The position numbers were made by a program, and so were the translations under genes. From IMG/VR virus record IMGVR_UViG_3300017743_001936, positions 1 to 22,852 of that record: 22,852 nucleotides of DNA; one strand, 5' to 3'. The stretch comes from a virus. Positions 3 through 15,499 of the stretch are shown here, one piece after another (position 1 is the stretch's first letter; each line of letters starts with the position of its first letter). The notes beneath the pieces were generated by a model. The model was given only the letters and a program-made list of their open reading frames with translations. It was not told the DNA's origin and made no database searches.

Positions 3-3000
3 GCAAAGGGTGATTTAACACTCCGTTATTGGAATAGCGGTGCATCAGCAGGTGTAGATAAAATTTCTAATCTTAGAATACAAAGAGGAGCTGTGTATGC
101 CACAGGGGCATCTATCACAGTACCTACTGCACCATTTTCACCAGATGCAAACACGGTCTTACTTACTGCTCAAGGTAAAACATTTCAAGACTATTCAAAT
201 AACAGTCAAGCAATTTCAAGATCGGGTAATGCTTTCATATCAGAGATTAGTCCATTTGGTAATGGGTATTGGAGTAATGACTTTACTGCAACTAACGCCG
301 GCATTTATACAGGCACATCCTCAGACTTTGCATTTGGCACAGGTAATTTCACAGTAGAGTGTTTTATTTATCTTACTAGTGCATCTGGAATTCAAGTTCT
401 TTGTGATTTGCGTGATGCTAGTAATGTTGATAATGACCACATAGCTCCGTTATTGATTGCTTCCTCTGGTAGACTAGCAGCATTTACTGGTTCTAACTTT
501 GAAGCTGGATCTGATGTAGACCTTGGCACAAATCAATGGTATCATATCGCTGTACAAAGATCTGGTAATTACTTATACTTTAGTAGAGATGGCACAGTTA
601 GTAGCACATACCCAGCTTATGATAAAAATTTAACAGCCTCGGGTTTAGCAACGATAGGTGTAAATGTAGGAGGAGGTGCTTCTCAGTCTCTAGCGTTTAT
701 TTCAAATCTCAGAATTATAAAAGGCACGGCTCTTTATGGCACAAGTAATTTTACAGCGCCTACAGGACCACTTACAACCACAAGTCAAGGTGCAACAGCT
801 TCAGAGGTTGTGTTATTAACTTGTCAGAATAATCGTTTTGTTGATAATAGTAATTCACCAAAAGCTTTCTCAATACACAACGCACCAAAAGTAGATGAAT
901 TTATACCATTTCAGTATCTACAAAGACAAACAAAATTAATTACTTGTCAAGAAAATAGATTTAGAGATGTAATCAATTATAGACATTTAGTTACCCTATC
1001 AGGTATTCCAAAAGTTTCTACGGTATCACCGTTTTCTTCAAACGCTTCTTACAAAACTGCAAACACCGGTGCAATTTATATGGATGGCACCAGTTTTGTT
1101 AAAGTTGATGAAACTGAGAAAGAATTTACTCATGGTTTAGATGATTATACAATTGAAGCTTGGGTTTATGATTTATCAGTTGATACAGGTCAAAGAACTA
1201 TTTTTGGTCGTAATGGAACAGGCAATCTAGCAATGCCATATGTTTATAAAGTATCATCATCAGAAGTTTTTAGTTTATACTATAGTAGTGGTATTGTATC
1301 TTCAACAAGAAAAATTTTCAAAGGTGAGTGGACTCATTTAGCACTTTGTAGAGAGGATGGGGTATCAAGATTATTCATCAATGGCGAGTTACAAGGGTCA
1401 GCGGCTGATACAACGACTATAGTATCACCCGTAAAATTTGTAATTGGTAACAATGGTGGTAGTTCATCAAATTTACCTTGGATAGGATATTTTCATGCTG
1501 TTCGTGTAGAAAAAGGCCGTGCAAAATATACATCAAACGCATCTTTCAATCCAGCTTCTACACAACCAGCATTAGCAAATAGTGCAAACACGGGTGCCAT
1601 ATCAACGAATCAATTTAGTAACTTCTTTGATGGGTCAGACCATTTAGCAAACACAAATGTAATACCAACGAGTGATATTTTTTTTGGCACGGCAAATGAT
1701 TTTACAATTGAAATGTGGTTTAATACAATAAATTTACCTGGCTCCGATATGCTTTTATATGATGGAAGAGTTGCCAATGGTGCATATCCAGCAATTATTT
1801 TAAATAGTGCAAATAAAATTTTATGGTATGTAAATACAGGAGCTCGGATAACATCAAGAGCATTAATGGCTAATAAGTGGTATCATTTAGCTATTGTTAG
1901 ATCTGGTGGCAGTACCACAATGTATCTTGATGGTCTGAAAGAAGGTGATGTTTATGCAGATACGATTGACTATTTACATGGCGATATTAATATAAGTTTA
2001 AATCAACCATCTGGCGGTCAACAATTCCAAGGTCGGATTCATGGTTTAAATGTCTTAAACGGTGTTGCAAAATACACATCAAACACAGCAGTTACATACA
2101 GCCCAGTTTCAACAACTGGTACACTATCAGCAAATAGTAATAGTTGGGATTTTAATAGGGGCGTTTACAACGGCACTTACCCATATTACAGTATATTAGG
2201 TGAAAGTGATTTTGTTGTAGGCACGAATGATTTTACAATAGAGGCTTGGATTTATATTGACAACTTCACACAATCTAGCATAATTGCATCACAAAGAGCT
2301 CAACCAACACTTGTGGCTGCAACTGTATATCCTCATTTTATTTTAAATGTTAATACAAGTGGCCAACTCCAGCTACAAACAAGAAATGCCAGCGGAACAC
2401 AATTTTTTGCGAAGTCAGCTACAGGCATAATAAAAACAAAAGTGTGGTATCACGTTGCAGCCACAAGAGCAAGTGGTGCTTTAAAAGTTTATATAAATGG
2501 AGTTCACCATAGCCATGAAACTGCTAATGATAGTGCTTTCAATTTAACAGAAGATGATTTTTGTGTTGGTGGTTATAGAGTAACAAGTTATTCTAGTATG
2601 TATGCAGGAAATATACATTCTTTGAGATTCATAATTGGTACTGCATTATATACATCAAATTTCACACCACCAACTGAGCCATTAACAACAACTTCTCAAG
2701 GTGCTACAGCATCAGAGGTCAAGTTTCTTGGATGTCAAAATGATACATTCATAAACAATGCAACAAATAATATACAAGGTGGTGGTTTTAGCGGAACAAC
2801 ATCAACTGGCACATTAGTAAACACAACAGGTCCTGGTGTCAGTACATTTAACCCATATGACAATGGGTATTGGAGTGTACACTTTGATGGTGATGATTAT
2901 TTAACAGTCCCAACCACCTCAGATCATGATTTTGGCACGGGTGATTTTACTGTAGAATTTTGGGTTCAGCCAAAAGAAGCACTTGGCGGACATATGTTCT

Positions 3001-6000
3001 TATCAGCTCCACAAAATACAACAACTCAATTAGGTTACGACACAGGAAATGGTCCTAGGTATTTGTATTTTTATAATGGTGCTAATATTATATCTGGTAC
3101 TGGCGCTGGTTCTTTAGTAAAGGATGTATGGAATCATGTAGCGTTAGCTAGAGAGGGTACAACACTTTCTTTATTTTCTAACGGAAATAGAGTAGGCACA
3201 GCCACACACAGTTCTAGTGTCAGTTTGTCAGGTTTGAATATTGGTAGATACCACGGTGGTGGTTGGGACATGATTAGTTCCATATCAAATCTTAGAATAG
3301 TTAAAGGTTCAGCATTATATGACCCTTCTAGTGCCACATATACTGTTCCAACATCGCCTTTAACTACAACTTCACAAGGCGCAACCGCATCAGAAGTAAA
3401 ACTTCTCACCTGCCAATCAGGTGCTATCATAGACAATTCAACTGCAAATTCTAGTCTTGGGTATGCTATAACTCCAGTTAATGATGCAAAAGTTTCCCGT
3501 TCAAGACCGTTCTCAACTGAACTCGCAAGAGACCAAATTTTACTGGCTTGTCAAGATAAAGAAGTGCAAAAAGACAATTCACATTTAGATACAAGATTTA
3601 CAAAAACTGGTGATGTAATAAGATCCGCAGACAACCCATTTGATAATGGTCTCTGGTCTTTATCTCTCGATGGTAGTGCTGATAAATTAACAACTCCTGA
3701 AGATGTGATAGATTTAGACACATCTAGTTTTACAGCAGAACTTTGGTTTAATCAAAGAGGTGATGGTGAAAATGGTGATGCCATAGGTAATACATTACTT
3801 ATTATTGGTGCAAGTTCTTCATCAAATGCTCTTTGGATTACAGTAACAAATGCTGGTGTAATACGAGCTCTCATTAGATACAATGGGTCATCTTGGGAAA
3901 CTGATTTGAACCCTGGCACAACCTTTGCATTAAATAAATGGCATCATGTTGCACTTGTAAAAAATACAGGCGACTCAAATAGTATTAAACTTTTTGTAAA
4001 TGGAGCTCTTATATCTTCAGGCACAAACAGCACAGATTTAACCAGTTTTGGTCAAAAAGTAGGTATAGGTGGTCAGGTAGGTGCGAATAGAAACTTTAAT
4101 GGGTTTATTTCAAATCTTCGTGTTGTGGTAGGTTCAGCCTTGTACACCACTACATTTACACCAAGTACATCTCCATTTACAACGACATCTCAAGGTGCTA
4201 CTGCATCAGAAGTAAAACTTCTTACTTGCCAATCTTCAAATTCTGTAGATAATTCAGGATCATTCATAAGATTTGTAGAATCAGGTAATATAGAAACAAA
4301 ACCAGTTTTCCCATTTGCAAACACAATACCACAACAAACAACACTTTTATCTGGAATATATCCTGGTTCTGTTCGTAATATAGGATTCATAGATGAGAGT
4401 AGTAATAATGCAGTAGTTGTGGCTCAAAATCAAGTTACTCAAGGTAGTTTTACACCACACTATCCACCATCAGGTTACTGGAGTAATGCTTTTACAGCCG
4501 ATAGTATAAAAGTAACAACAGCATCAGATTTTGATTTAAGTTCTAATCAAGAATTTTCTATCGAATTCTGGTTGTTCCCAAGATCTGTAAATTCTTCTTG
4601 GGGTATATTCTTTTATGCCAACCCTAATGATGATAATTTTCAAATATCGCATGATGCAAGTGGTAACATAGATTTAAGATTTGCAGGTTCTCAAATCGGA
4701 ACTCCTTTTAATTTACCTTTAGGCTCATGGTCGCATCTCGTAATTACAAGAGATAGTAGTGGGTATATACGACAATTTCTTAATGGTGTCTTGAAAAACT
4801 ATAATCAAAAAACGAATGCTATTGATCGTGATTTTGTAACTATTGGAGATAGAAACGGTGGAAATCATTTTTTAGGTCACATATCAAATGTAAGATGGGT
4901 TAAAGACTCAATACCAACAGGTTATGTAACAACTGAAACATCCACTGGTACAACCATATTTACACCGCCAACTACGCCTACGACAACAACATCACAAAGT
5001 GCCACAGAGGCTGATGTTAAATTATTAACTTGTAAGTCTAATCAATTTGTTGATGAATCAGGTAATCATACAATTACTTTGAATGGCACACCAAGAGTTC
5101 AACCTTTCTTCCCATTTGACCTCACAACATCTTATGATCCCTATGATCATGGTGGGTCTGCATACTTTGATGGTACTGATGATCGTCTGAGTTTACCCTT
5201 AGGAGGTTTTACAAACTTTTTAGGACAAGATTTTACTTTTGAATGTTGGTATTATGGTGAAACAAGTTCAGATGCAAATAAAAATTTATTTTCACAGGGT
5301 GATGGGTATTCACCTCTTAGTGTTTATCATTATGGTAATGGTATAAGATATAATTTATCTACTGGAGGTTCTTGGACTAAACAAGACACATCAACGTATG
5401 GGTCAAATGGATTTATCAATCAATGGAATCATGTTGCTATCTCTCGTAGTGGTAGTAACTTTGCAGCTTTCTTAAACGGAACTAGAGTTGATAATTATAC
5501 AAACGCAATCACTTTAATGACACCAACACAGAGTACCCACATTGGGGCTAGAAATGGAAACGATTTTGATTACAAGGGTTATGTATCTTCATGGAGAATG
5601 GTCATAGATGAGGCCATATATGATCCTACTCAAAGCACTTTAACTTTACCTACTGCACCATTTCGTAATACTGCAAATACAAGAGCATTACTAAACTTTG
5701 TAAATGCTGGTATTTTCGATTCAACAGGGAAAACTGTTTTTTCTGTTGCAGGTGATGCCAAAATATCAACGGGTGCAGCAAATACTAAATTTGGTACTGG
5801 TAGTTTAAGTTTTGATGGGACTGGTGATTACTTACAAACATTACAGTCTCCTAATTTAGTATTTGGCTCTGGTGATGTTACGGTTGAAGCTTTTGTAAAA
5901 CCAATGACTTCACCAGCTATCGCAACGATTATTGATACCAGGTCAGGTTATAGCACAGAGGCATTTAGTTTTTATATTTCTAGCGGTATTCTTCAAGTGT

Positions 6001-6314
6001 GGGCAGGTGCATATTCAAATTCTAGTGTGTTAAGACAAGGTGGGGCAGTTCCTACCGGGACATGGAGTCATGTTGTATTTGTTAGGCATAACGGCACTAA
6101 TATGTTATTCATAAATGGTCAAAAAAGTGGTGCTGATAATACAAATGCTTGGAATCAAACATTCCTCTCAACCGCTAATTGGAGAATAGGAGATTCTACC
6201 TCTTATGCAAGAGGATTTAATGGCTTCATAGACGAGTTAAGAATAACAAAAATGGCTAGATATACTGCGAACTTTACACCAATGACCGCAGCTTCAGGTA
6301 ATAAAACAAGTTAA
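3..6314 (+). CDS. Giant multi-LamG (concanavalin A-like lectin) repeat protein, 5'-truncated by the window edge
   Basis: The frame is open from base 3, so the gene starts left of the window. The GTG at 93 is not the start, because the codons before it already encode the end of a LamG unit (KISNLRIQRGAVY). After that partial unit come nine units, with cores near 258-740, 1065-1530, 1611-2085, 2140-2665, 2862-3325, 3645-4150, 4470-4900, 5151-5630 and 5793-6275. Each core reads FDG...D(F)GTGDFTIE.W..., then W.H.A..R...L.INGV, then ISNLRI.KGTALY. This is the Laminin_G_3-like pattern of phage tail and adhesin proteins, a family that often binds carbohydrate. No catalytic residues are evident. The position upstream of neck genes and beside a tail-chaperone-like gene suggests a virion fibre or adhesin, which is inference. 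Stop TAA lies 11 bases before the next start. LamG fold: confident. Exact role: open. Confidence 0.88.
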   Translation, partial: AKGDLTLRYWNSGASAGVDKISNLRIQRGAVYATGASITVPTAPFSPDANTVLLTAQGKTFQDYSNNSQAISRSGNAFISEISPFGNGYWSNDFTATNAGIYTGTSSDFAFGTGNFTVECFIYLTSASGIQVLCDLRDASNVDNDHIAPLLIASSGRLAAFTGSNFEAGSDVDLGTNQWYHIAVQRSGNYLYFSRDGTVSSTYPAYDKNLTASGLATIGVNVGGGASQSLAFISNLRIIKGTALYGTSNFTAPTGPLTTTSQGATASEVVLLTCQNNRFVDNSNSPKAFSIHNAPKVDEFIPFQYLQRQTKLITCQENRFRDVINYRHLVTLSGIPKVSTVSPFSSNASYKTANTGAIYMDGTSFVKVDETEKEFTHGLDDYTIEAWVYDLSVDTGQRTIFGRNGTGNLAMPYVYKVSSSEVFSLYYSSGIVSSTRKIFKGEWTHLALCREDGVSRLFINGELQGSAADTTTIVSPVKFVIGNNGGSSSNLPWIGYFHAVRVEKGRAKYTSNASFNPASTQPALANSANTGAISTNQFSNFFDGSDHLANTNVIPTSDIFFGTANDFTIEMWFNTINLPGSDMLLYDGRVANGAYPAIILNSANKILWYVNTGARITSRALMANKWYHLAIVRSGGSTTMYLDGLKEGDVYADTIDYLHGDINISLNQPSGGQQFQGRIHGLNVLNGVAKYTSNTAVTYSPVSTTGTLSANSNSWDFNRGVYNGTYPYYSILGESDFVVGTNDFTIEAWIYIDNFTQSSIIASQRAQPTLVAATVYPHFILNVNTSGQLQLQTRNASGTQFFAKSATGIIKTKVWYHVAATRASGALKVYINGVHHSHETANDSAFNLTEDDFCVGGYRVTSYSSMYAGNIHSLRFIIGTALYTSNFTPPTEPLTTTSQGATASEVKFLGCQNDTFINNATNNIQGGGFSGTTSTGTLVNTTGPGVSTFNPYDNGYWSVHFDGDDYLTVPTTSDHDFGTGDFTVEFWVQPKEALGGHMFLSAPQNTTTQLGYDTGNGPRYLYFYNGANIISGTGAGSLVKDVWNHVALAREGTTLSLFSNGNRVGTATHSSSVSLSGLNIGRYHGGGWDMISSISNLRIVKGSALYDPSSATYTVPTSPLTTTSQGATASEVKLLTCQSGAIIDNSTANSSLGYAITPVNDAKVSRSRPFSTELARDQILLACQDKEVQKDNSHLDTRFTKTGDVIRSADNPFDNGLWSLSLDGSADKLTTPEDVIDLDTSSFTAELWFNQRGDGENGDAIGNTLLIIGASSSSNALWITVTNAGVIRALIRYNGSSWETDLNPGTTFALNKWHHVALVKNTGDSNSIKLFVNGALISSGTNSTDLTSFGQKVGIGGQVGANRNFNGFISNLRVVVGSALYTTTFTPSTSPFTTTSQGATASEVKLLTCQSSNSVDNSGSFIRFVESGNIETKPVFPFANTIPQQTTLLSGIYPGSVRNIGFIDESSNNAVVVAQNQVTQGSFTPHYPPSGYWSNAFTADSIKVTTASDFDLSSNQEFSIEFWLFPRSVNSSWGIFFYANPNDDNFQISHDASGNIDLRFAGSQIGTPFNLPLGSWSHLVITRDSSGYIRQFLNGVLKNYNQKTNAIDRDFVTIGDRNGGNHFLGHISNVRWVKDSIPTGYVTTETSTGTTIFTPPTTPTTTTSQSATEADVKLLTCKSNQFVDESGNHTITLNGTPRVQPFFPFDLTTSYDPYDHGGSAYFDGTDDRLSLPLGGFTNFLGQDFTFECWYYGETSSDANKNLFSQGDGYSPLSVYHYGNGIRYNLSTGGSWTKQDTSTYGSNGFINQWNHVAISRSGSNFAAFLNGTRVDNYTNAITLMTPTQSTHIGARNGNDFDYKGYVSSWRMVIDEAIYDPTQSTLTLPTAPFRNTANTRALLNFVNAGIFDSTGKTVFSVAGDAKISTGAANTKFGTGSLSFDGTGDYLQTLQSPNLVFGSGDVTVEAFVKPMTSPAIATIIDTRSGYSTEAFSFYISSGILQVWAGAYSNSSVLRQGGAVPTGTWSHVVFVRHNGTNMLFINGQKSGADNTNAWNQTFLSTANWRIGDSTSYARGFNGFIDELRITKMARYTANFTPMTAASGNKTS
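258..6280 (+). repeat. Nine tandem LamG-type protein repeats (coding)
   Basis: The array of complete LamG units is divergent at DNA level but clear in protein. Unit period is irregular, about 180-270 codons. Units 5 and 6 show the cleanest boundaries (NGYWS or NGLWS before FDG/LDG). The spacing variation comes partly from extra N-terminal strand segments without a following core, at about 930-1035 and 3537-3645, and from a long non-repetitive insert before unit 7 at about 4320-4470. Confidence 0.8.
774..5036 (+). repeat. Dispersed 18-codon repeat TTTSQGATASEVKLLTCQ, five copies
   Basis: Near-identical 18-codon segments occur at 774-827, 2685-2738, 3363-3416, 4179-4232 and 4983-5036, in the LamG protein frame. 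Copies 3 and 4 encode identical peptides. Copy 2 has KFLGCQ and copy 5 reads TTTSQSATEADVKLLTCK. They join the C-terminal end of one LamG unit to the first strand of the next (LLTCQ...DNS). Conservation here exceeds that of the LamG cores, and each copy keeps a cysteine. Confidence 0.85.
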
Positions 6315-6819: not shown

Positions 6820-7347
6820 ATGGCCGTACAAGAAGGATACTTAGGAAACCCGCCAAGAACAGCTCAATTTCTGGTAGACCAATTTGCCGGAGATAGCTCA
6901 ACTACAACTTTTAATTTACAAATCGCACCTGGTTCTGGACTTTCTATATTTGTTTTTATAGATGGTGTAAGACAATCAGTTGATTCGTATGTAATAGACT
7001 TAGCAACTATAAATTTTACTGCGGCTCCAAGCACATCCCCATCTGGACCTGGGACTAAAAATATTGAAGTAGTACATATCACTCAAGGTTTTACGCCTGT
7101 GGTTCCCTCAGATGCCTCTGTAACTGATGCTAAATTAACTGCTACAGGTGTAACATCTGGTTTATATGGCGGTACAGCTAATCAAGTTATTCATACAGTT
7201 CAAGTGAATAGTAAAGGTAGAGTTAGTAATGTTGCAAATGTTGCTGTGGCAGACTTAGATTTTTCTGCATTACCTACAGGTGGTGGCTCTGTGGTGGCCG
7301 GAAGATTATATAAAGAAGCTAATAATTTAATTTTTATTAAAACGTAG
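6820..7347 (+). CDS. Fibre/connector-like virion protein, 175 aa
   Basis: Residues ~15-90 show a pattern typical of N-terminal domains of phage tail fibres: FAGDSSTTTFNL, then IFVFIDGVRQSVDSYVID, then INFTAAPS and IEVVHI. Residues ~108-150 carry a second fibre-associated motif, GLYGGTANQVIHTVQVNSKGRVSNVANVAVA, split here as GLYGG...IHTVQV, then KGRVSNVANVAVAD. The C-terminus is RLYKEANNLIFIKT. It probably contributes a small attachment or adaptor element of a fibre, which is inference. An AAGGA at 6809-6813 precedes the ATG by six bases, and a late-promoter-like octamer lies just upstream. The N-terminal MAVQEGYLGN resembles the start of the large terminase in this window (MSTEGYLGN). Confidence 0.65.
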   Translation: MAVQEGYLGNPPRTAQFLVDQFAGDSSTTTFNLQIAPGSGLSIFVFIDGVRQSVDSYVIDLATINFTAAPSTSPSGPGTKNIEVVHITQGFTPVVPSDASVTDAKLTATGVTSGLYGGTANQVIHTVQVNSKGRVSNVANVAVADLDFSALPTGGGSVVAGRLYKEANNLIFIKT

Positions 7348-7699: not shown

Positions 7700-10639
7700 A
7701 TGTCTATATTTCGTTTAAACCAAAAAACAATTGGTAGACCACGAGGTTACAAATATCCCGCAGGATTATCTTTTATTGTAACTGGTCAAACTGATGGTGC
7801 CCCAAGAGCTAATATAGCTACAAATACAACTGGCGGAACTCAAACAGTTATTGGTGATGAAACAATACACACGTTCTTAGAATCTGATGATTTTGTTTGG
7901 ACATCATCACAGCCTGGATTTATCGACTACGTTGTTGTAGGCGGTGGAGGCGGTGGCGGTGGTAATAACGGTGCTGGCGGTGGTGGGGGTGGTGTTCTCA
8001 TGCGAGAAAGATATCACCTTGATGCAGGATCAAATTGCCAAATCACAATAGGGGCAGGTGGGGCTGGTGGCACAGGATCTGGAACTATAGCAGGTTTTGG
8101 TGGTAATACAATTTTAGAATTACCTACAATGAATGTTACCGCAGGTGGCGGTGGTAATGGTGGTCAGTACAAGGGTGAACCTGCTTCAGCAGATCTGGGG
8201 CACTCTGGTGGTAAAGGGCATAACGATGGAGGTTCAGGTGGTGGGGGTGGACAAACAAGGGGTTTAGGTGGGGCCTCGGCTAATATATCTGGTGAAAATA
8301 AAATTTGGACATCGAACGGTTCATTTTCAGGTGCAAACGGTTCTTCTGCGGTAAATCCTGGATATCATGGTGCAGGCGGTGGAGCTGGAAATACTGCTTA
8401 CGGTGGCACAGGTGGCGCCGGTCTAAACGCACCTTTCTTAAATAAAATTCAACTATCTGAAGCAGCCGGTACTTCAAATAACTATACATTTGGTGGCGGT
8501 GGTGGTGCAGGTTGGTGGACAAGTCCAAAGGGTGGTGCAGCTGGCGGTGCAGGTGGAGGTGGTGGAGGTGGTGCAACCCCAGTTCACACTACAGGTCTGC
8601 CTGGTGGTGCTGGCTTTAATTCAGGAAGTCCAGGTCAACCAACTACTTTAGGTGGTGCTGGTGGTGTAAACTCCGGTGGAGGCGGAGGTGGTGGCGGTTA
8701 TGGTAAGAATGGTGCCCCTGGAACTTGGGGTGGTGCAGGCGGTTCGGGTTGTGTAATCATAAGATATGACACAAATCAAATAAATGTTCAAACAGATCAA
8801 GCAAACGCAGCCACACTTACAACGGGTGGTACACAAATAACTCAAAACGGATATGCAATTCACTCATTTACGTCTGGTTCTTCTACATTCTCCACACAAC
8901 TTGCAAATTTAGAGGTAGAAATTTTAGCTATTGCAGGTGGTGGAGGCGGTGGCGGACCAAACTATCATGGCGGTGGGGGCGGTGCAGGTGGACTTGTTTA
9001 TGCCAAAAACTTTACCATACATAGAGAATCACCAAGTGCAGCTTTATCAAAGGCAACAATTGTAATAGGTGCTGGTGCAGCAGGTGGTCACCCAGTTGGT
9101 GGTAGAGGTAGTAATACAACTGTAGGTTTCCCAGATTTAGTTTCACCATCAGCAAATTTATTTTGCCATGGTGGTGGAGGCGGAGGGAGTTATAATGGTG
9201 CATCAGGGACTCCTGGTGGTTCGGGGGGTGGAGGTAATGCAAGTCTTGCTGGGCCTTTAACTGCTGGTTTATCCGTTCAAGCAAACACTCTTTATAATAC
9301 ACTTCCAGGTTTTGGTCACGGATTTCCAGGCGGTAACGGCCAAGGTCCTACACCGCATCAAGGCGGTGGAGGAGGAGGCGCTGGCGGTGCTGGGGAAAAT
9401 GGTCAAAGATCAATTCCTTCAGGTGTTGCAAATGGCGGACTAGGTTTATCATTCAGTATATCAGGGGCAGTTCAAGGTTATGCAGGCGGTGGAGGCGGCT
9501 CACTTTGGACTGCTAATCCCGCATATGGACGTGCAGGTCTCGGTTTTGATGGCGGCGGTGATGGTGCCTCTGCTGGTAGTGGTTATCCCGCTAAAAACGG
9601 TTTAGACAATCGTGGCGGTGGCGGTGGTGGGGGTGAAAGAGGTATAGGTGTTGGAACTGGTGGTTCTGGTGTAGTTTATATTCGTTATTTAATGAGAGAT
9701 AGAGTAGCAAATCAAGTTGTCGCAAGTGTGAATACATCTAATGCGGGTACAAACACCACAGGTGGTACACAAACAGATGAAGGTGAATTTATGTTACACA
9801 CCTATAATTCATCTAGTTATTTTAAACCAACCGTAAATGTACAAGCTGATGTTCTCTGTGTTGCAGGTGGTGGCTCTGGTGGAGGCTCAGTTGGTGGAGG
9901 TGGTGGTGCAGGTGGATTAATCTTCTTAGACAATTTTGTCTTTGAGGGTGGCCAACATTACTCAGTAAATGTAGGTGCAGGTGGTACTGCGCCGGCACCA
10001 TCAACAATGGGAAATCCTGGAAATAATACAGATATACACCTTGCAAATACTATTCAAGTCGTAATGTCTGAAAGAGGTGGAGGAGGGGCATCTTATCTTG
10101 GTCCTTCATATCAAAATGATGGTTTACCCGGTGGTTCAGGGGGCGGGGCTACAGGTTATGCACCTGGCGGTTCAGTTACAGCTAAGTCGGGTGGGGTTGC
10201 AAATACAGGTCAAGGTTCTGCTGGCGGTAACTCACTAACAACAAATAATGGTGCCGGAGGTGGTGGTGCAGGATCCACAGGGACAGATGCAGTTCCTGGT
10301 GGTAGTGCTCCAACAAATCATGGTTCAAGGGGTGGTGATGGGCTATTTTTTGGTATATCTGGTGAGAACAAAGCTTATTCAGGGGGTGGAGGATCAGGTG
10401 GTAACAGCGGCACACCAGGATTTGGTGGTGCTGGTGGCGGAGGTCAAGGTGCCTTATTCCCAGTTAATGCTGGTACGGCCGGCGCAGCTAATCGAGGTGG
10501 TGGCGGAGGAGGTGGCCAAACTAGTGGAGCGGGCACCGGTGGTGCCGGTGGTTCAGGTGTCGTATTCATAAGATACAAAAAAGTACAATCAAATGTTATA
10601 GTAGCACTTACGGTTGAACGCAACTATTCTATAAATTAA
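7700..10639 (+). CDS. Polyglycine-domain adhesin-like protein, copy 1 (979 aa)
   Basis: The N-terminus (~60 aa, FRLNQKTIGRPRGYKYPAGLSF then DGAPRANIATNTTGGTQT) is shared with the next gene. It is followed by three glycine-rich modules at about residues 75-356, 405-663 and 713-960. Each module is introduced by TTGGTQT...IH(T/S)F and an alternating hydrophobic strand (VVVGGGG, ILAIAGGGG, VLCVAGGG). Long runs of G with A/S follow, then RGGGGGG or GGAGGSG and a closing strand (CVIIRY, VVYIRY, VVFIRY). This matches the Gly-rich domain common in phage tail proteins. By analogy with the S16-type gp38 adhesin it may form packed polyglycine-II helices with variable loops contacting the host. That comparison is inference. 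The C-terminus is NYSIN. No convincing Shine-Dalgarno precedes the ATG. The GGT-rich codons raise local GC above the neighbours. Confidence 0.8.
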   Translation: MSIFRLNQKTIGRPRGYKYPAGLSFIVTGQTDGAPRANIATNTTGGTQTVIGDETIHTFLESDDFVWTSSQPGFIDYVVVGGGGGGGGNNGAGGGGGGVLMRERYHLDAGSNCQITIGAGGAGGTGSGTIAGFGGNTILELPTMNVTAGGGGNGGQYKGEPASADLGHSGGKGHNDGGSGGGGGQTRGLGGASANISGENKIWTSNGSFSGANGSSAVNPGYHGAGGGAGNTAYGGTGGAGLNAPFLNKIQLSEAAGTSNNYTFGGGGGAGWWTSPKGGAAGGAGGGGGGGATPVHTTGLPGGAGFNSGSPGQPTTLGGAGGVNSGGGGGGGGYGKNGAPGTWGGAGGSGCVIIRYDTNQINVQTDQANAATLTTGGTQITQNGYAIHSFTSGSSTFSTQLANLEVEILAIAGGGGGGGPNYHGGGGGAGGLVYAKNFTIHRESPSAALSKATIVIGAGAAGGHPVGGRGSNTTVGFPDLVSPSANLFCHGGGGGGSYNGASGTPGGSGGGGNASLAGPLTAGLSVQANTLYNTLPGFGHGFPGGNGQGPTPHQGGGGGGAGGAGENGQRSIPSGVANGGLGLSFSISGAVQGYAGGGGGSLWTANPAYGRAGLGFDGGGDGASAGSGYPAKNGLDNRGGGGGGGERGIGVGTGGSGVVYIRYLMRDRVANQVVASVNTSNAGTNTTGGTQTDEGEFMLHTYNSSSYFKPTVNVQADVLCVAGGGSGGGSVGGGGGAGGLIFLDNFVFEGGQHYSVNVGAGGTAPAPSTMGNPGNNTDIHLANTIQVVMSERGGGGASYLGPSYQNDGLPGGSGGGATGYAPGGSVTAKSGGVANTGQGSAGGNSLTTNNGAGGGGAGSTGTDAVPGGSAPTNHGSRGGDGLFFGISGENKAYSGGGGSGGNSGTPGFGGAGGGGQGALFPVNAGTAGAANRGGGGGGGQTSGAGTGGAGGSGVVFIRYKKVQSNVIVALTVERNYSIN

Positions 10640-10654
10640 TAGATAAGTAAAAAT

Positions 10655-13423
10655 ATGGCAATTAAAAAAACATTTTCATCATTCAACTTTAGACCAAAGG
10701 GTTTTGAATATCCTACAGGTTTATCTTTTGGTATAATTGGTAGTGATGGTTTACCAACTTCAAATGCGGCTACAAACACAACAGGCGGTACTAAAACCGT
10801 TGATGTCTCAAATAGTTTTGCAATTCACACATACACAACATCTGGTACATTTGACCCAAGTTTTACTGGTACGGTTGAATACCTCGTTGTTGCCGGTGGT
10901 GGCAGCGGTGCCGTAGTATATGGAGGGGGTGGTGCAGGAGGCGTAAGACAAGGAACTATTCAAGTTGAATCAACAGCAACTTATAATATTACAGTAGGTG
11001 GTGGAGGCGCAGCTCCAGCAGCAACTCCAATTGGCACAGGTAGTGGTGCTAATGGCACTAATTCAATGTTCGCAACAATCGAAGCTTCGGGTGGTGGTTT
11101 CGGATCATCTGGCCAACACGCTGCAGCAGGTGGTTCTGGTGGAGGTGGAGGTAATTATAATGCTGTTGTTTATAATGGTGGTATAGGAAATAAAGGTAAT
11201 TACGAACCACTTGACTCAAGCGGTGAAGGTAATCCTGGAGGTATCGTTCACGCTCCACTAGGTTGTGGCGCCGGTGGCGGAGGAGCAGGATCACCAGGTG
11301 GACATGGTACAAGAGATTCAAGCGGACCTGGTGGTTCATCATTGAGTGGTTTCGGTGGTTCAGGAGTAAATTCTGCAATATCAGGCACAATGACCGCTTA
11401 TGGTGGCGGAGGTGGGGGTGGTGCTTGGACAGGTCCATCATCACAAAGTGCAGCTGCTGTAGGAGCTCGAGGCGGTGTTGGTGGTGGAGGTCCTGGTGGA
11501 GCTCACCCCGAAGGCCCAACTGATGGTAATTACAAAGCAGCTCCAGCTGCTTATGGTAATGGTGGTGCTGGTGCGGTAAATAGAGGTGGTGGCGGAGGCG
11601 CTGCAACATCCAGCTCTGCAGCTGCTGTTAGTGGTGGTGCAGGTGGGTCTGGTGTTGTAATTTTAAGATACATTACAAATCAGGTTGGGCCAGGTAATAG
11701 ATCAAATGTGTTTACTAGTTCAACGGGTGGTACAAAAACAACCGATAATGCCTACGCCTATCATGTTTTTACAACTTCAGGAACTTTTACCGCCTCAAAA
11801 CAATTAGAGGCTGATGTTTTACTTGTTGGTGGTGGTGGAGGCGGAGGTTATGATAGCGGTGGAGGTGGTGGTGCAGGTGGTTTTGTATATGCTTCAGGTA
11901 TCACAGTACCATCATCAGCTCACCAAGTATGGGTTGGTGCTGGTGGTGCAGGCGCCCCTGGTTATCCTGCCAGAGCTGGTAATGGTCAAAATTCAATATT
12001 TGGTACGTCTAATGCAGCCGCACTTTATGCTGAAGGAGGAGGAAGTGGTGGGGGTGCAGCTGGAGCAACACCAGCTACAGGACCTGGAGCTCCTGGAGGT
12101 TCTGGAGGAGGCTCTGCCGGTGGTGGCCCAGGTGGAACTATTGGAGTATCAAATACAACAATAAAACAAGGTAGTGATGGAGGTAATGCCATGACATCAT
12201 CACCATATGGAGCTGGAGGAGGTGGCGGTGCTATTCGGAAAGGATTTGATGCAACACCAGGAAATGGTGGGCGAGGGGGTGATGGTGCTTATATAACTAT
12301 GTCTGGTTCAGGTGCAACTACAGCTTATGCTGGGGGTGGTGGCGGTGTTCTTTGGCGATCAGGCCCATCTGGACCTGGATCTGGTGGTGTAGGTGGTGGT
12401 GCTCCTGGTTCTGGTTATCCTAGCATATCATCTGGTACCGCAAATAGAGGTGGCGGTGCAGGTGGCGGTTCACACGGACCTGGAGATCAAAAAGAAGCTG
12501 GTGGAAATGGAGGGTCTGGTGTTGTTATAATAAGATATGAGAAAGAGCAAGTAGACGGTCTTCAAAATGTAATTTCAACAGGCACGACTGGTGGTGAAGT
12601 TAGCTTTGACGAAGAAGAAGCAGTGCATACATTCAATTCACCTGGCACGTTTACTGCTGGTGCTGATATGAATGTCGATGTTTTAATTGTTGCGGGTGGT
12701 GGAGGTGGCGGTGCAGATAGAGCTGGCGGTGGCGGTGCAGGTGGTCTAGTTTATCTTTCTAATTACCCAGTTTCAAACACTACTGGGTATACAATTGCAG
12801 TAGGAAGCGGAGGTGCTGGTGCACCACCTTCTACAAAAGGTGGTAACGGGTCAAATTCGATCTTTAATAATCAATATTATACAGAAGGCGGTGGCGGTGG
12901 TGGTACAAGTCATCCAGGAACGGGTATAAGAGATGGAAGCCCTGGAGGTTCTGGTGGTGGCGGCTCACTTTATGGTGGTGCAGGTACAGGTGGATCTGCA
13001 AACAATACTGGAACAGGAATTGCTTTACAACAAGGTAATCAGGGTGGCGCAGGCTCAGAACCTGGTGAAGGTGGCGGAGGCGGCGGAGCTGCAATGAGAG
13101 GTAATCCATTTAATGGCGGAAGTCAAGGTGGTCCAGGTTTAATGTTTAGTGGTATCGCATACGCAGCCGGCGGTGGAGGTGGTAGAGCTTCTGCTTTTTC
13201 TCAAGGGGGTAGTTCTAACACAGGCGGTCTTGGAGGAGGCGGATCATCAGCAGCCGGAGGTGTTGGTGTAGCAAATAGAGGATCTGGTGGAGGTGGTGGA
13301 GGTGGTAATGCACCCGGCTCTGCACCAGGAGCAGGTGGTGCTGGCGCAGATGGTGTAATTGTTATAAGATATAAAAAATTAAAAGCTGGAATTACATCAA
13401 CAGAAGGGTACTTCATTAATTAA
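10655..13423 (+). CDS. Polyglycine-domain adhesin-like protein, copy 2 (922 aa)
   Basis: This is the paralog of the preceding gene. The N-terminus FNFRPKGFEYPTGLSF, then NAATNTTGGTKTV, aligns with copy 1. Three modules follow at about residues 74-340, 386-628 and 672-907. They open with EYLVVAGGG, DVLLVGGGGGGG and DVLIVAGGGGGG and close with GSGVVILRY, GSGVVIIRY and DGVIVIRYKK. Inside the modules the order is stereotyped: GGGGAGG, a strand with VG.GGAGAP, NG.NS.F, GG.GGGG, PGGSGGGG, G..GG, ISG/MSG, YAGGGGG.....G..GG, ANRGGG. The C-terminus is STEGYFIN. It starts 15 bases after copy 1, with only a weak purine stretch (AATAGATAAG) before ATG, so coupled translation is possible. A virion surface or host-recognition role is inferred. 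Substitution is concentrated in the loops between glycine runs. Confidence 0.8.
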   Translation: MAIKKTFSSFNFRPKGFEYPTGLSFGIIGSDGLPTSNAATNTTGGTKTVDVSNSFAIHTYTTSGTFDPSFTGTVEYLVVAGGGSGAVVYGGGGAGGVRQGTIQVESTATYNITVGGGGAAPAATPIGTGSGANGTNSMFATIEASGGGFGSSGQHAAAGGSGGGGGNYNAVVYNGGIGNKGNYEPLDSSGEGNPGGIVHAPLGCGAGGGGAGSPGGHGTRDSSGPGGSSLSGFGGSGVNSAISGTMTAYGGGGGGGAWTGPSSQSAAAVGARGGVGGGGPGGAHPEGPTDGNYKAAPAAYGNGGAGAVNRGGGGGAATSSSAAAVSGGAGGSGVVILRYITNQVGPGNRSNVFTSSTGGTKTTDNAYAYHVFTTSGTFTASKQLEADVLLVGGGGGGGYDSGGGGGAGGFVYASGITVPSSAHQVWVGAGGAGAPGYPARAGNGQNSIFGTSNAAALYAEGGGSGGGAAGATPATGPGAPGGSGGGSAGGGPGGTIGVSNTTIKQGSDGGNAMTSSPYGAGGGGGAIRKGFDATPGNGGRGGDGAYITMSGSGATTAYAGGGGGVLWRSGPSGPGSGGVGGGAPGSGYPSISSGTANRGGGAGGGSHGPGDQKEAGGNGGSGVVIIRYEKEQVDGLQNVISTGTTGGEVSFDEEEAVHTFNSPGTFTAGADMNVDVLIVAGGGGGGADRAGGGGAGGLVYLSNYPVSNTTGYTIAVGSGGAGAPPSTKGGNGSNSIFNNQYYTEGGGGGGTSHPGTGIRDGSPGGSGGGGSLYGGAGTGGSANNTGTGIALQQGNQGGAGSEPGEGGGGGGAAMRGNPFNGGSQGGPGLMFSGIAYAAGGGGGRASAFSQGGSSNTGGLGGGGSSAAGGVGVANRGSGGGGGGGNAPGSAPGAGGAGADGVIVIRYKKLKAGITSTEGYFIN

Positions 13424-13887: not shown

Positions 13888-14103
13888 ATGGCAATTTCAA
13901 AGATAGTAACAAACTCACTTGCAAATACTGCTGTAACTCCTGGTGAATACGGTAATACAAATACAGCCGTGTCTATGACTATCAATGAAAAAGGCCAAAT
14001 AACAAGAGTCGCTAATGTCGCTATAGCTGGTGTGAGTGGCGGAGGTGGTGGTGGCGGTAGCGGTGAAGAAGGTTTCAACCCATTCTTATTGTCAGGTATG
14101 TAA
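13888..14103 (+). CDS. Small fibre-motif protein with polyglycine tail, 71 aa
   Basis: Residues ~15-48 read TPGEYGNTNTAVSMTINEKGQITRVANVAIA. In pieces, GEYGN, then TINEKGQITRVANVAIAGV. This is the same motif found in the 175 aa protein (KGRVSNVANVAVA) and in many phage fibre proteins. It is followed by a SGGGGGGGSG linker and EEGFNPFLLSGM. It could be a mini-fibre tip or attachment peptide, or a remnant of a larger fibre gene. The start ATG is ten bases after the previous stop; the only nearby purine match (AAGGA at 13868) is rather far. Same reading frame as the next gene, with stops TAA at 14101 and 14122 between them. Confidence 0.55.
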   Translation: MAISKIVTNSLANTAVTPGEYGNTNTAVSMTINEKGQITRVANVAIAGVSGGGGGGGSGEEGFNPFLLSGM

Positions 14104-14110
14104 AGTAACT

Positions 14111-14140
14111 CCTGGTTTGACTAAATAGTCCTAAAACAGG
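14111..14140 (+). promoter_or_regulatory. Imperfect RNA hairpin covering the Shine-Dalgarno of the next gene
   Basis: CCTG at 14111-14114 pairs with CAGG at 14137-14140. TTT at 14116-14118 pairs with AAA at 14133-14135, and GACT at 14119-14122 pairs with AGTC at 14127-14130. That leaves one G/A mismatch, a two-base bulge and an AAAT loop. The right arm ends inside the AGGAG (14138-14142) of the downstream gene. The stem would partly occlude ribosome binding or act as a weak end-of-gene structure. No T-run follows, so an intrinsic terminator is unlikely. Function is inferred. Confidence 0.45.
14120..14127 (+). promoter_or_regulatory. Weak late-promoter-like octamer (ACTAAATA)
   Basis: ACTAAATAG lies in the loop region of the dyad, 22 bases before the inferred start. 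The same nine bases recur upstream of the tail sheath gene (19417). It differs from TATAAATA at the first two positions, so promoter function is tentative. Confidence 0.3.
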
Positions 14141-14148
14141 AGAACGAG

Positions 14149-14484
14149 ATCGCTACTTATACTGAGCTCTTCATAGAGCAATACGCAAATTTTTCAAACA
14201 CAATTCATGTAAAAGACAATTCAGGTTCAAACATTAACTTGTTTGGGTATACAGCTAACTCTGAAATAAGAAAATCTCCGTACTCTTCCTCTGCAAATTC
14301 TTTTACTGCTACGGTTACTGGTAATGCAAATGGTCAAGTAACAATCACAATGTCAGCAGCTACTACTGCAAACCTAAGAGCAGGTCGATATATGTATGAT
14401 GTTCTTGTAACTTCATCAGGTGGTAATAAAATAAGAGCAGTTGAAGGTATTGTAAATATATTACCAGGTGTAACAAGGACATAA
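14149..14484 (+). CDS. Conserved phage structural-region protein, 111 aa, apparent ATC start
   Basis: The frame encodes ATYTELFIEQYANFSNTI, then VKDNSGSNINLFGYTANSEIRKSP, then FTATVTGNANGQVTITMSAATT, ANLRAGRYMYDVLVT and RAVEGIVNILPGVTRT. I recognise the phage family with N-termini like MA.Y..L.I.QG..F...I....G...DL.GYTARA.IRKS... and a GRY.YDV...EG...V.PGVT end. The family match clearly begins near 14149. Between stop 14122 and TTG 14239 there is no ATG, GTG or TTG in frame. AGGAG at 14138-14142 is followed after six bases by ATC GCT ACT TAT, exactly where ATG GCT would be expected. A start at TTG 14239 would delete the conserved first strand. Either ATC is used, or the base is an error or mutation. 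The protein looks all-beta; its precise role is unknown to me. Confidence 0.6.
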   Translation: MATYTELFIEQYANFSNTIHVKDNSGSNINLFGYTANSEIRKSPYSSSANSFTATVTGNANGQVTITMSAATTANLRAGRYMYDVLVTSSGGNKIRAVEGIVNILPGVTRT

Positions 14485-14485
14485 T

Positions 14486-15499
14486 ATGCCAAATTATAAT
14501 TTATCAGAGTCACCAAGAGGATATTCAGGTAAACCAACCACTAGACAATCATTTAAAGATTATTGTTTAAGAAGATTGGGTTTTCCTGTAATAGAGATAA
14601 ATGTAGATGATGATCAAATAGAAGATCGAATTGATGATGCTCTTCAATATTTTCACGACTATCATTTTGATGGTGTTGAAAAAATCTTTATGAAACACCA
14701 AGTAACACAGGCTGATATTGAGAGGAAGTGGATTTATGCTCCTGATGCGGTAATATTTGTAAATGGTGTTTTTCCATTTGATGATTCTAACTCGTCAATC
14801 AATATGTTTGACTTGAGATACCAATTAAGATTACATGACTTATATGACTTTACATCTGTTTCTTATGTGTCATATGAAATCACAATGCAACATATCAGAA
14901 CTCTTAATCTTTTATTTTCAGGCACACCACAGTTTAGATTCAATCGACATCAAAACAAACTTTTCTTAGACATAGATTGGACAAGAGACTTAAACGTAGG
15001 TGAATACGTTATTGTAGAATGTTATCGTAAATTACAACCAGATACAATTAATATATCTGGCACAGCTGCAATTACAAGTGATGCAAATACACTTACTGGC
15101 ACAAACACAACTTTTGATCAACAATTGATTGAAAATGATTTCATAACTTTAGCAAACACTTCAAACACATCTGATACAGTAGAAGTTCAAATCAAGCAAA
15201 TAAACTCACCAACATCTATCACGTTAAGAAGTAATCCAGGGACAACAATAGCAGAAGCCAGCATCACACAAGCAGGATTTTCTGATGTGTGGGATGATAG
15301 GTTCTTAAAAAAATATACAACAGCTCTCATAAAATACCAATGGGGTTCTAATTTATCAAAATTTGCTGGTGTTCAAATGCCAGGAGGTGTTACGTTAGAT
15401 GGCCCTAGGATTATGGAAGAAGCAAAAGCAGAAATAGACAAGATAGAAGAGGAGATGCAAGTCTTGAATGTGTTGCCAAATGAAATCTATATGGGATAA
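14486..15499 (+). CDS. 13: gp13-like neck (head completion) protein, 337 aa
   Basis: The N-terminal half shows the T4 gp13 pattern: TRQSFKDYCLRRLGFPVIEINVDDDQIEDRIDDALQYFHDYHFDGVE, in pieces SFKDYCLRRLGFPVIEIN, then DRIDDALQYFHDYH. Next come FDLRYQLRLHDLYDF and FRFNRHQNKLFLDIDW, with a C-terminal KKYTTALIKYQWGSNLSKF and GPRIMEEAKAEIDKIEEEM. In T4 this protein completes the packaged head and binds the portal/neck. At 337 aa it is somewhat longer than T4 gp13. Residues ~187-263 (ISGTAAITSDANTLTG...) look like an inserted beta segment. ATG is two bases past the previous stop, with AAGGA at 14474-14478. Gene order 13-20 supports the call. Confidence 0.9.
   Translation: MPNYNLSESPRGYSGKPTTRQSFKDYCLRRLGFPVIEINVDDDQIEDRIDDALQYFHDYHFDGVEKIFMKHQVTQADIERKWIYAPDAVIFVNGVFPFDDSNSSINMFDLRYQLRLHDLYDFTSVSYVSYEITMQHIRTLNLLFSGTPQFRFNRHQNKLFLDIDWTRDLNVGEYVIVECYRKLQPDTINISGTAAITSDANTLTGTNTTFDQQLIENDFITLANTSNTSDTVEVQIKQINSPTSITLRSNPGTTIAEASITQAGFSDVWDDRFLKKYTTALIKYQWGSNLSKFAGVQMPGGVTLDGPRIMEEAKAEIDKIEEEMQVLNVLPNEIYMG

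Follow-up and report, generated by a model that had tools for sequence, protein, structure and literature searches.

All 64 codons were reportedly measured as start codons by Hecht in 2017. According to PMC12350097, from which the ranking is taken at second hand, AUC, AUU and AUA belong to the seven codons that initiate most strongly in E. coli. In bacteria, few genes with an AUC or AUU start have been documented, and gene callers restricted to ATG, GTG and TTG overlook them. Among the closest described systems, infC, the gene of IF3, starts with ATT in E. coli and with ATC in Streptomyces, sigR starts with GTC, and the control of the infC ATT/ATC start by IF3 is known (PMC5472188). In these genes the near-cognate start is conserved by selection and keeps initiation low and IF3-dependent. 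A second system is found in genes e, soc and 49 of phage T4, in which a late-promoter motif lies between the arms of a hairpin masking the Shine-Dalgarno (SD) sequence; in gene e, translation of the long transcripts is poor and the 5' arm is missing from the late ones (PMC3014915). The third one is p132 of phage T5, a dodecameric collar which anchors the side fibres and resembles the N-terminal domain of BppU (PMC10038345). In a literature search covering few subscription journals, AUC or AUU starts in phage virion genes were not found described, which is weak evidence of novelty.

In the window, that is, the whole stretch of 22,852 nucleotides analysed here, the gene at 14149 shares with the near-cognate-start class the absence of a canonical in-frame start at its conserved N-terminus, the presence of an SD and conservation among related genomes (Table 1). 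It opens with ATC and ends with the TAA at 14484. The in-frame stretch from 14122 reads TAA (14122-14124) ATA (14125) GTC CTA AAA CAG GAG AAC GAG ATC GCT ACT TAT, and the first ATG, GTG or TTG met in frame after this TAA is TTG 14239, as the first-pass annotation had claimed. The sequence also agrees with its statements that AGGAG (14138-14142) stands six bases ahead of ATC and that gene 18 shares this spacing (GGAG, six bases, ATG).

Table 1. Coordinates in the window of the features of the ATC-start locus.
Feature	Position	Strand	Remarks
5' arm CTCCTG of predicted hairpin	14109..14114	+	pairs with SD CAGGAG 14137-14142; in read-through transcripts only
Putative T4/Aeh1-type late promoter, ACTAAATA	14120..14127	+	matches Aeh1 consensus; TAAATA kept in subfamily
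Shine-Dalgarno CAGGAG	14137..14142	+	six bases ahead of ATC; anti-SD duplex -7.4 kcal/mol
ATC start codon	14149..14151	+	aligned family start; 13 contigs; ATC/ATT again in divergent members
Ig-like virion adaptor gene, p132-like, 111 residues	14149..14484	+	phrog_1084 / phrog_3304, E 3e-24 and 3e-22
5-bp hairpin GCTCT-TCAT-AGAGC	14166..14179	+	codons 6-11, +18 to +31 from start
Gene 13-like neck/head-tail adaptor, ATG start	14486..15499	+	phrog_211, E 6e-42; directly downstream neighbour

Comparison of the codon in close relatives, which the first-pass annotation had proposed as a check, showed the aligned codon to be ATC in the window as well as in 12 further IMG/VR contigs, these sequences falling into two clades with protein identities of 86-90% and 71-74%. 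A motif scan in which the start codon was left open returned no codon but ATC and 0 contigs with ATG. More divergent members of the family carry ATC (L126, L139, L160/L161, L166 and L099) or ATT (L050 and L064) at the aligned start, and homologs that start with ATG (L003, L005 and L022-L025) begin exactly at the aligned ATC codon. The dN/dS of the ORF is 0.08-0.17, indicating purifying selection. The ATC at 14149 is very probably the genuine start, and the true non-canonical start that had been one of several options offered earlier is now strongly supported by the recurrence of ATC at the aligned start across contigs and divergent lineages. Two of the other options, a base or assembly error for ATG and a recent inactivating mutation, have in their favour only that distant relatives start with ATG. 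Since ATC recurs among contigs from different samples, the base error is excluded for practical purposes, and so is the recent mutation by the same codon being present in 13 contigs and recurring in several divergent lineages, in an ORF under purifying selection; the chance left to either of them is negligible.

A start placed elsewhere, whether internally, at TTG 14239 or a different codon, or through read-through, hopping or frameshifting from the upstream gene, would agree with the presence of TTG 14239 in the window and with the reading frame shared by the upstream ORF (13888-14103). However, the sister clade has CTG in place of TTG 14239 and meets its first canonical codon at codon 67, and residues 3-20, which form two beta-strands in the AlphaFold model, are encoded ahead of TTG 14239, so that a protein beginning there would lose the first strands of the fold; homologs starting at this TTG, the outcome which the first-pass annotation had set against an ATC start, were not encountered. 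The upstream genes are wholly different between the ATC clades, and all 18 ATC/ATT sequences possess an in-frame stop 5-13 codons upstream with no canonical start in between, their next canonical in-frame codon being found at codon 17-67. Both TTG 14239 and a fusion, read-through or hopping product were rejected on these grounds, and initiation away from the ATC is very improbable. A role for the Dam site (GATC) that overlaps the start codon was rejected as well, the site not being conserved (GACATC in L017-L021).

The distribution of start codons was established on a family set of 136 distinct loci obtained with two profile-guided scans. In the window's clade of 64 proteins, the start is TTG in 27, GTG in 17, ATC in 12, ATT in 2 and ATG in 6, and outside this clade ATG is found in 62 of the 63 members with a readable start. 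The first-pass annotation had overlooked this wider pattern, in which weak starts are used by the entire clade. A start-codon scan by SD motif alone yielded many ATA and ATT calls beside ATG and was superseded by homology-based scans. Other genes of the same contigs with homology-supported starts begin with ATG in 95 cases, TTG in 5 and GTG in 3 (about 92% ATG), and three of these five TTG cases are overlapping shadow frames. The difference in start codon between the clade gene and the other genes is very large, with a nominal Fisher odds ratio of 184, for which p is not to be taken literally as the sequences are related. A tree from which the first residue had been left out requires no fewer than 17 start-codon changes in total, and no fewer than 6 exchanges of ATC/ATT with canonical codons, the latter count being approximate since the tree rests on 110 columns and has 44 unresolved forks. 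The ATC/ATT members form six groups on this tree (the window clade with L126; L160 with L099; L139; L166; L050; L064), L139 (ATC) being surrounded by GTG members and L050 (ATT) by TTG members, with identities of up to 92%. This switching among weak starts in the relatives suggests that evolution has been holding down the production of the protein, and the low expression proposed by the first-pass annotation thereby gains indirect support from the repeated, conserved use of weak starts.

The frequent turnover, of at least 17 changes, would also be expected if AUC were a true start whose weak codon is nearly neutral, a strong SD carrying initiation while the codon drifts among near-cognates, and the strong SDs that accompany weak starts (see below) point in the same direction. 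ATG should then be common, yet it is found in only 6 of the 64 proteins, with neighbours in the same contigs that are about 92% ATG. Moreover, the homology-based scan of related contigs returned one other near-cognate start, in the portal gene of L166's contig, and since it is the only other one in these contigs the trait appears concentrated in the p132-like gene. Neutral drift of the codon is unlikely, while keeping a real share of the probability. The portal gene itself (gene 20, L217, - strand, contig IMGVR_UViG_3300027977_000248) has an apparent ATC start (GGAGG-CACTAAA-ATC GCC GTA AAA); at least 4 of its homologs have ATG, the ATC version occurs in this single contig only, and the contig has ATC in its p132-like gene too. 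The start codon varies as well for the window gene at 6820 (ATG), whose homologs L203 and L205 begin with GTG and TTG.

The strength of the SD was also compared between start-codon classes. Its mean is -7.8 kcal/mol for ATC/ATT, -8.0 kcal/mol for GTG and -7.7 kcal/mol for TTG members, compared to -4.3 kcal/mol for the ATG members of the subfamily and -4.7 kcal/mol for the rest of the family. SDs are stronger in weak-start than in ATG members with a p of 1e-7 calculated without phylogenetic correction, the phylogenetically independent pairs on supported branches being 2, too few to test the link between SD and codon. These values are suggestive of an SD strength tied to the start codon, which fits a tuned initiation rate. 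The strong SDs partly compensate for the weak codons, so that net initiation may not be low.

Upstream of the start, an SD-masking hairpin placed around a putative late promoter, overlooked by the first-pass annotation, was predicted. The late-promoter motif is located 21 bases upstream of the start, between the hairpin arms; the Aeh1 late-promoter consensus has a/gC at -13/-12 (PMC2988020). Within the EL/EI subfamily, 62 distinct upstream regions have TAAATA 18-50 bases ahead of the start, and similar motifs precede the window genes at 6820, 13461, 19476 and 21440; across the entire window the motif shows no enrichment. Counted from -13, the predicted transcript start would be at about 14133, four bases before CAGGAG. 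The CTCCTG/CAGGAG hairpin has a predicted RNA fold of -12.1 kcal/mol (z -2.1), and its 5' arm is conserved in both ATC clades. Matching arms of other sequence are found in L129, L043 and L132 (CTCCCA/TGGGAG), in L044 (CTCCTGTTTT/AAAACGGGAG), in L126 and L017 (CTCCTGTTT/AAACAGGAG) and in L054 (TTCCCCTTTT/AAAAGGGGAA), other members showing no clear SD-masking stem. For the subfamily, the mean best stem is 13.3 vs 10.9 +/- 0.32 in a cross-pair control whereby right arms were dealt to left arms of other sequences. Judging from these pairings, the predicted SD-masking stem belongs to several lineages, not to all, and only some members of the clade have a strong one.

Two further observations were made on this region. 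The gene upstream of the ATC gene (13888-14103 in the window, and those upstream of L010 and L016) differs between close relatives and the leader is conserved from the SD-masking arm onward, pointing to a module boundary just ahead of the leader. In the distant ATG-start members L102 (upstream of 1124) and L117 (upstream of 1180), perfect inverted repeats of 13 and 10 bp respectively flank the late-promoter motif, without obvious SD pairing.

The combination of a late-promoter motif with an SD-masking stem suggests control of timing, and IF3 control of ATT/ATC starts has a precedent (PMC5472188). Both would suit a dedicated late switch, by which an IF3 activity altered by the phage or a modified initiation complex would render AUC/AUU efficient, the codon then serving timing and not a low dose. 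However, relatives that start with TTG or GTG would have no need of such a switch, no candidate factor came to light, and the stretches searched yielded no phage tRNA, and hence none that might read AUC. A switch of this kind is therefore improbable.

Regarding the protein, the window phage is T4-like, its terminase being about 55% identical to terminases of cyanophages, pelagiphages and Methylophilales phages. The phrog matches of the ATC gene span residues 14-118 of the stop-to-stop ORF; phrog_3304 carries the annotation 'L-shaped tail fiber protein assembly' and the annotations given to the homologs are those of tail fibre or tail-fibre assembly proteins. A Pfam search gave nothing above the cut-off, and no relatives of the protein were found in bacterial genome contigs. 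The AlphaFold model, made from 31 relatives, displays an Ig-like sandwich (mean pLDDT 91.5), for which the top PDB matches are tail-tip chains of DT57C/T5 in 8hqz and 7qg9 (E 4e-8 to 2e-7, TM (query) 0.69-0.75); these chains are taken as p132 from PMC10038345 together with their size. The predicted Ig-like domain resembles the T5 collar protein p132. The likeness to the T5 p132/DT57C collar and to the BppU N-terminal domain lies in a small domain of Ig-like type that is about as long, p132 forming a collar of 12 subunits; on the other hand, identity in the structural match is 21-23%, and the gene described here stands beside gene 13 in a T4-like phage.

Taken together, a true AUC start with repeatedly selected weak initiation, limiting the dose of a low-copy adaptor, is the explanation that we consider probable, along with a likely sensitivity to IF3 and a leader that masks read-through transcripts. 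The ordinary initiator tRNA would start translation at AUC 14149, guided by the strong SD six bases upstream, and formyl-Met would remain the first residue of the protein. With AUC as its codon, initiation would stay inefficient and probably IF3-sensitive, a low and IF3-sensitive yield being expected by analogy with infC and sigR. Weak initiation would itself be the selected trait, the clade exchanging TTG, GTG, ATC and ATT and rarely taking ATG, and it would most likely restrict how much is made of a low-copy tail adaptor resembling T5 p132/BppU-N in type. Transcripts from the late promoter would begin just upstream of the SD and be open for translation, and in read-through transcripts CUCCUG would mask the SD by pairing with CAGGAG, in the manner of T4 gene e.

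This locus differs from its models in several respects. While infC and sigR encode regulators of the cell for which a feedback or ratio logic is known, the present gene is a phage virion gene, and its codon, unlike theirs, turns over among ATC, ATT, TTG and GTG. Gene e of T4 has an AUG start and its masking prevents early lysis, whereas here a weak start is found on a structural adaptor; the gene e-type stem is present in strong form in only some of the clade, with a transcript start that is predicted. The chances are evenly balanced for the broader proposal that a T4-like clade evolved a gene-specific preference for inefficient starts, AUC/AUU having arisen several times independently, which sets the stoichiometry of one virion protein, and that in some lineages a gene e-type SD-masking leader restricts synthesis to late transcripts. 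Several origins of AUC/AUU in one phage structural gene provide natural replicates for asking what purpose weak initiation serves, and the gene allows testing whether the stoichiometry of virion proteins is set by the start codon and whether IF3 is exploited by phages. In many phages, the p132-like gene will be truncated or omitted by standard annotation.

The first-pass annotation had also pointed out the 5-bp hairpin just downstream of the start as a possible means of slowing the ribosome. The stem is indeed present, with a fold of -6.8 kcal/mol (z -3.6), and in the window's clade it is invariant with a variable loop (TCAT, ACAT, TTCT); as its sequence never varies, there is no covariation. 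None of the other ATC lineages (L126, L139, L160, L166 and L099) has the hairpin, leaving ribosome slowing unsupported as a general feature, and it was rejected as a general start enhancer for the same reason; no role is ascribed to it here. Synonymous conservation of the first codons is not exceptional in comparison with other genes.

Elsewhere in the window, two adjacent and very long glycine-rich genes of 979 and 922 residues (7700-13423) belong to phrog_2295, and a gene of 2073 residues (93-6314) matches baseplate/structural families.
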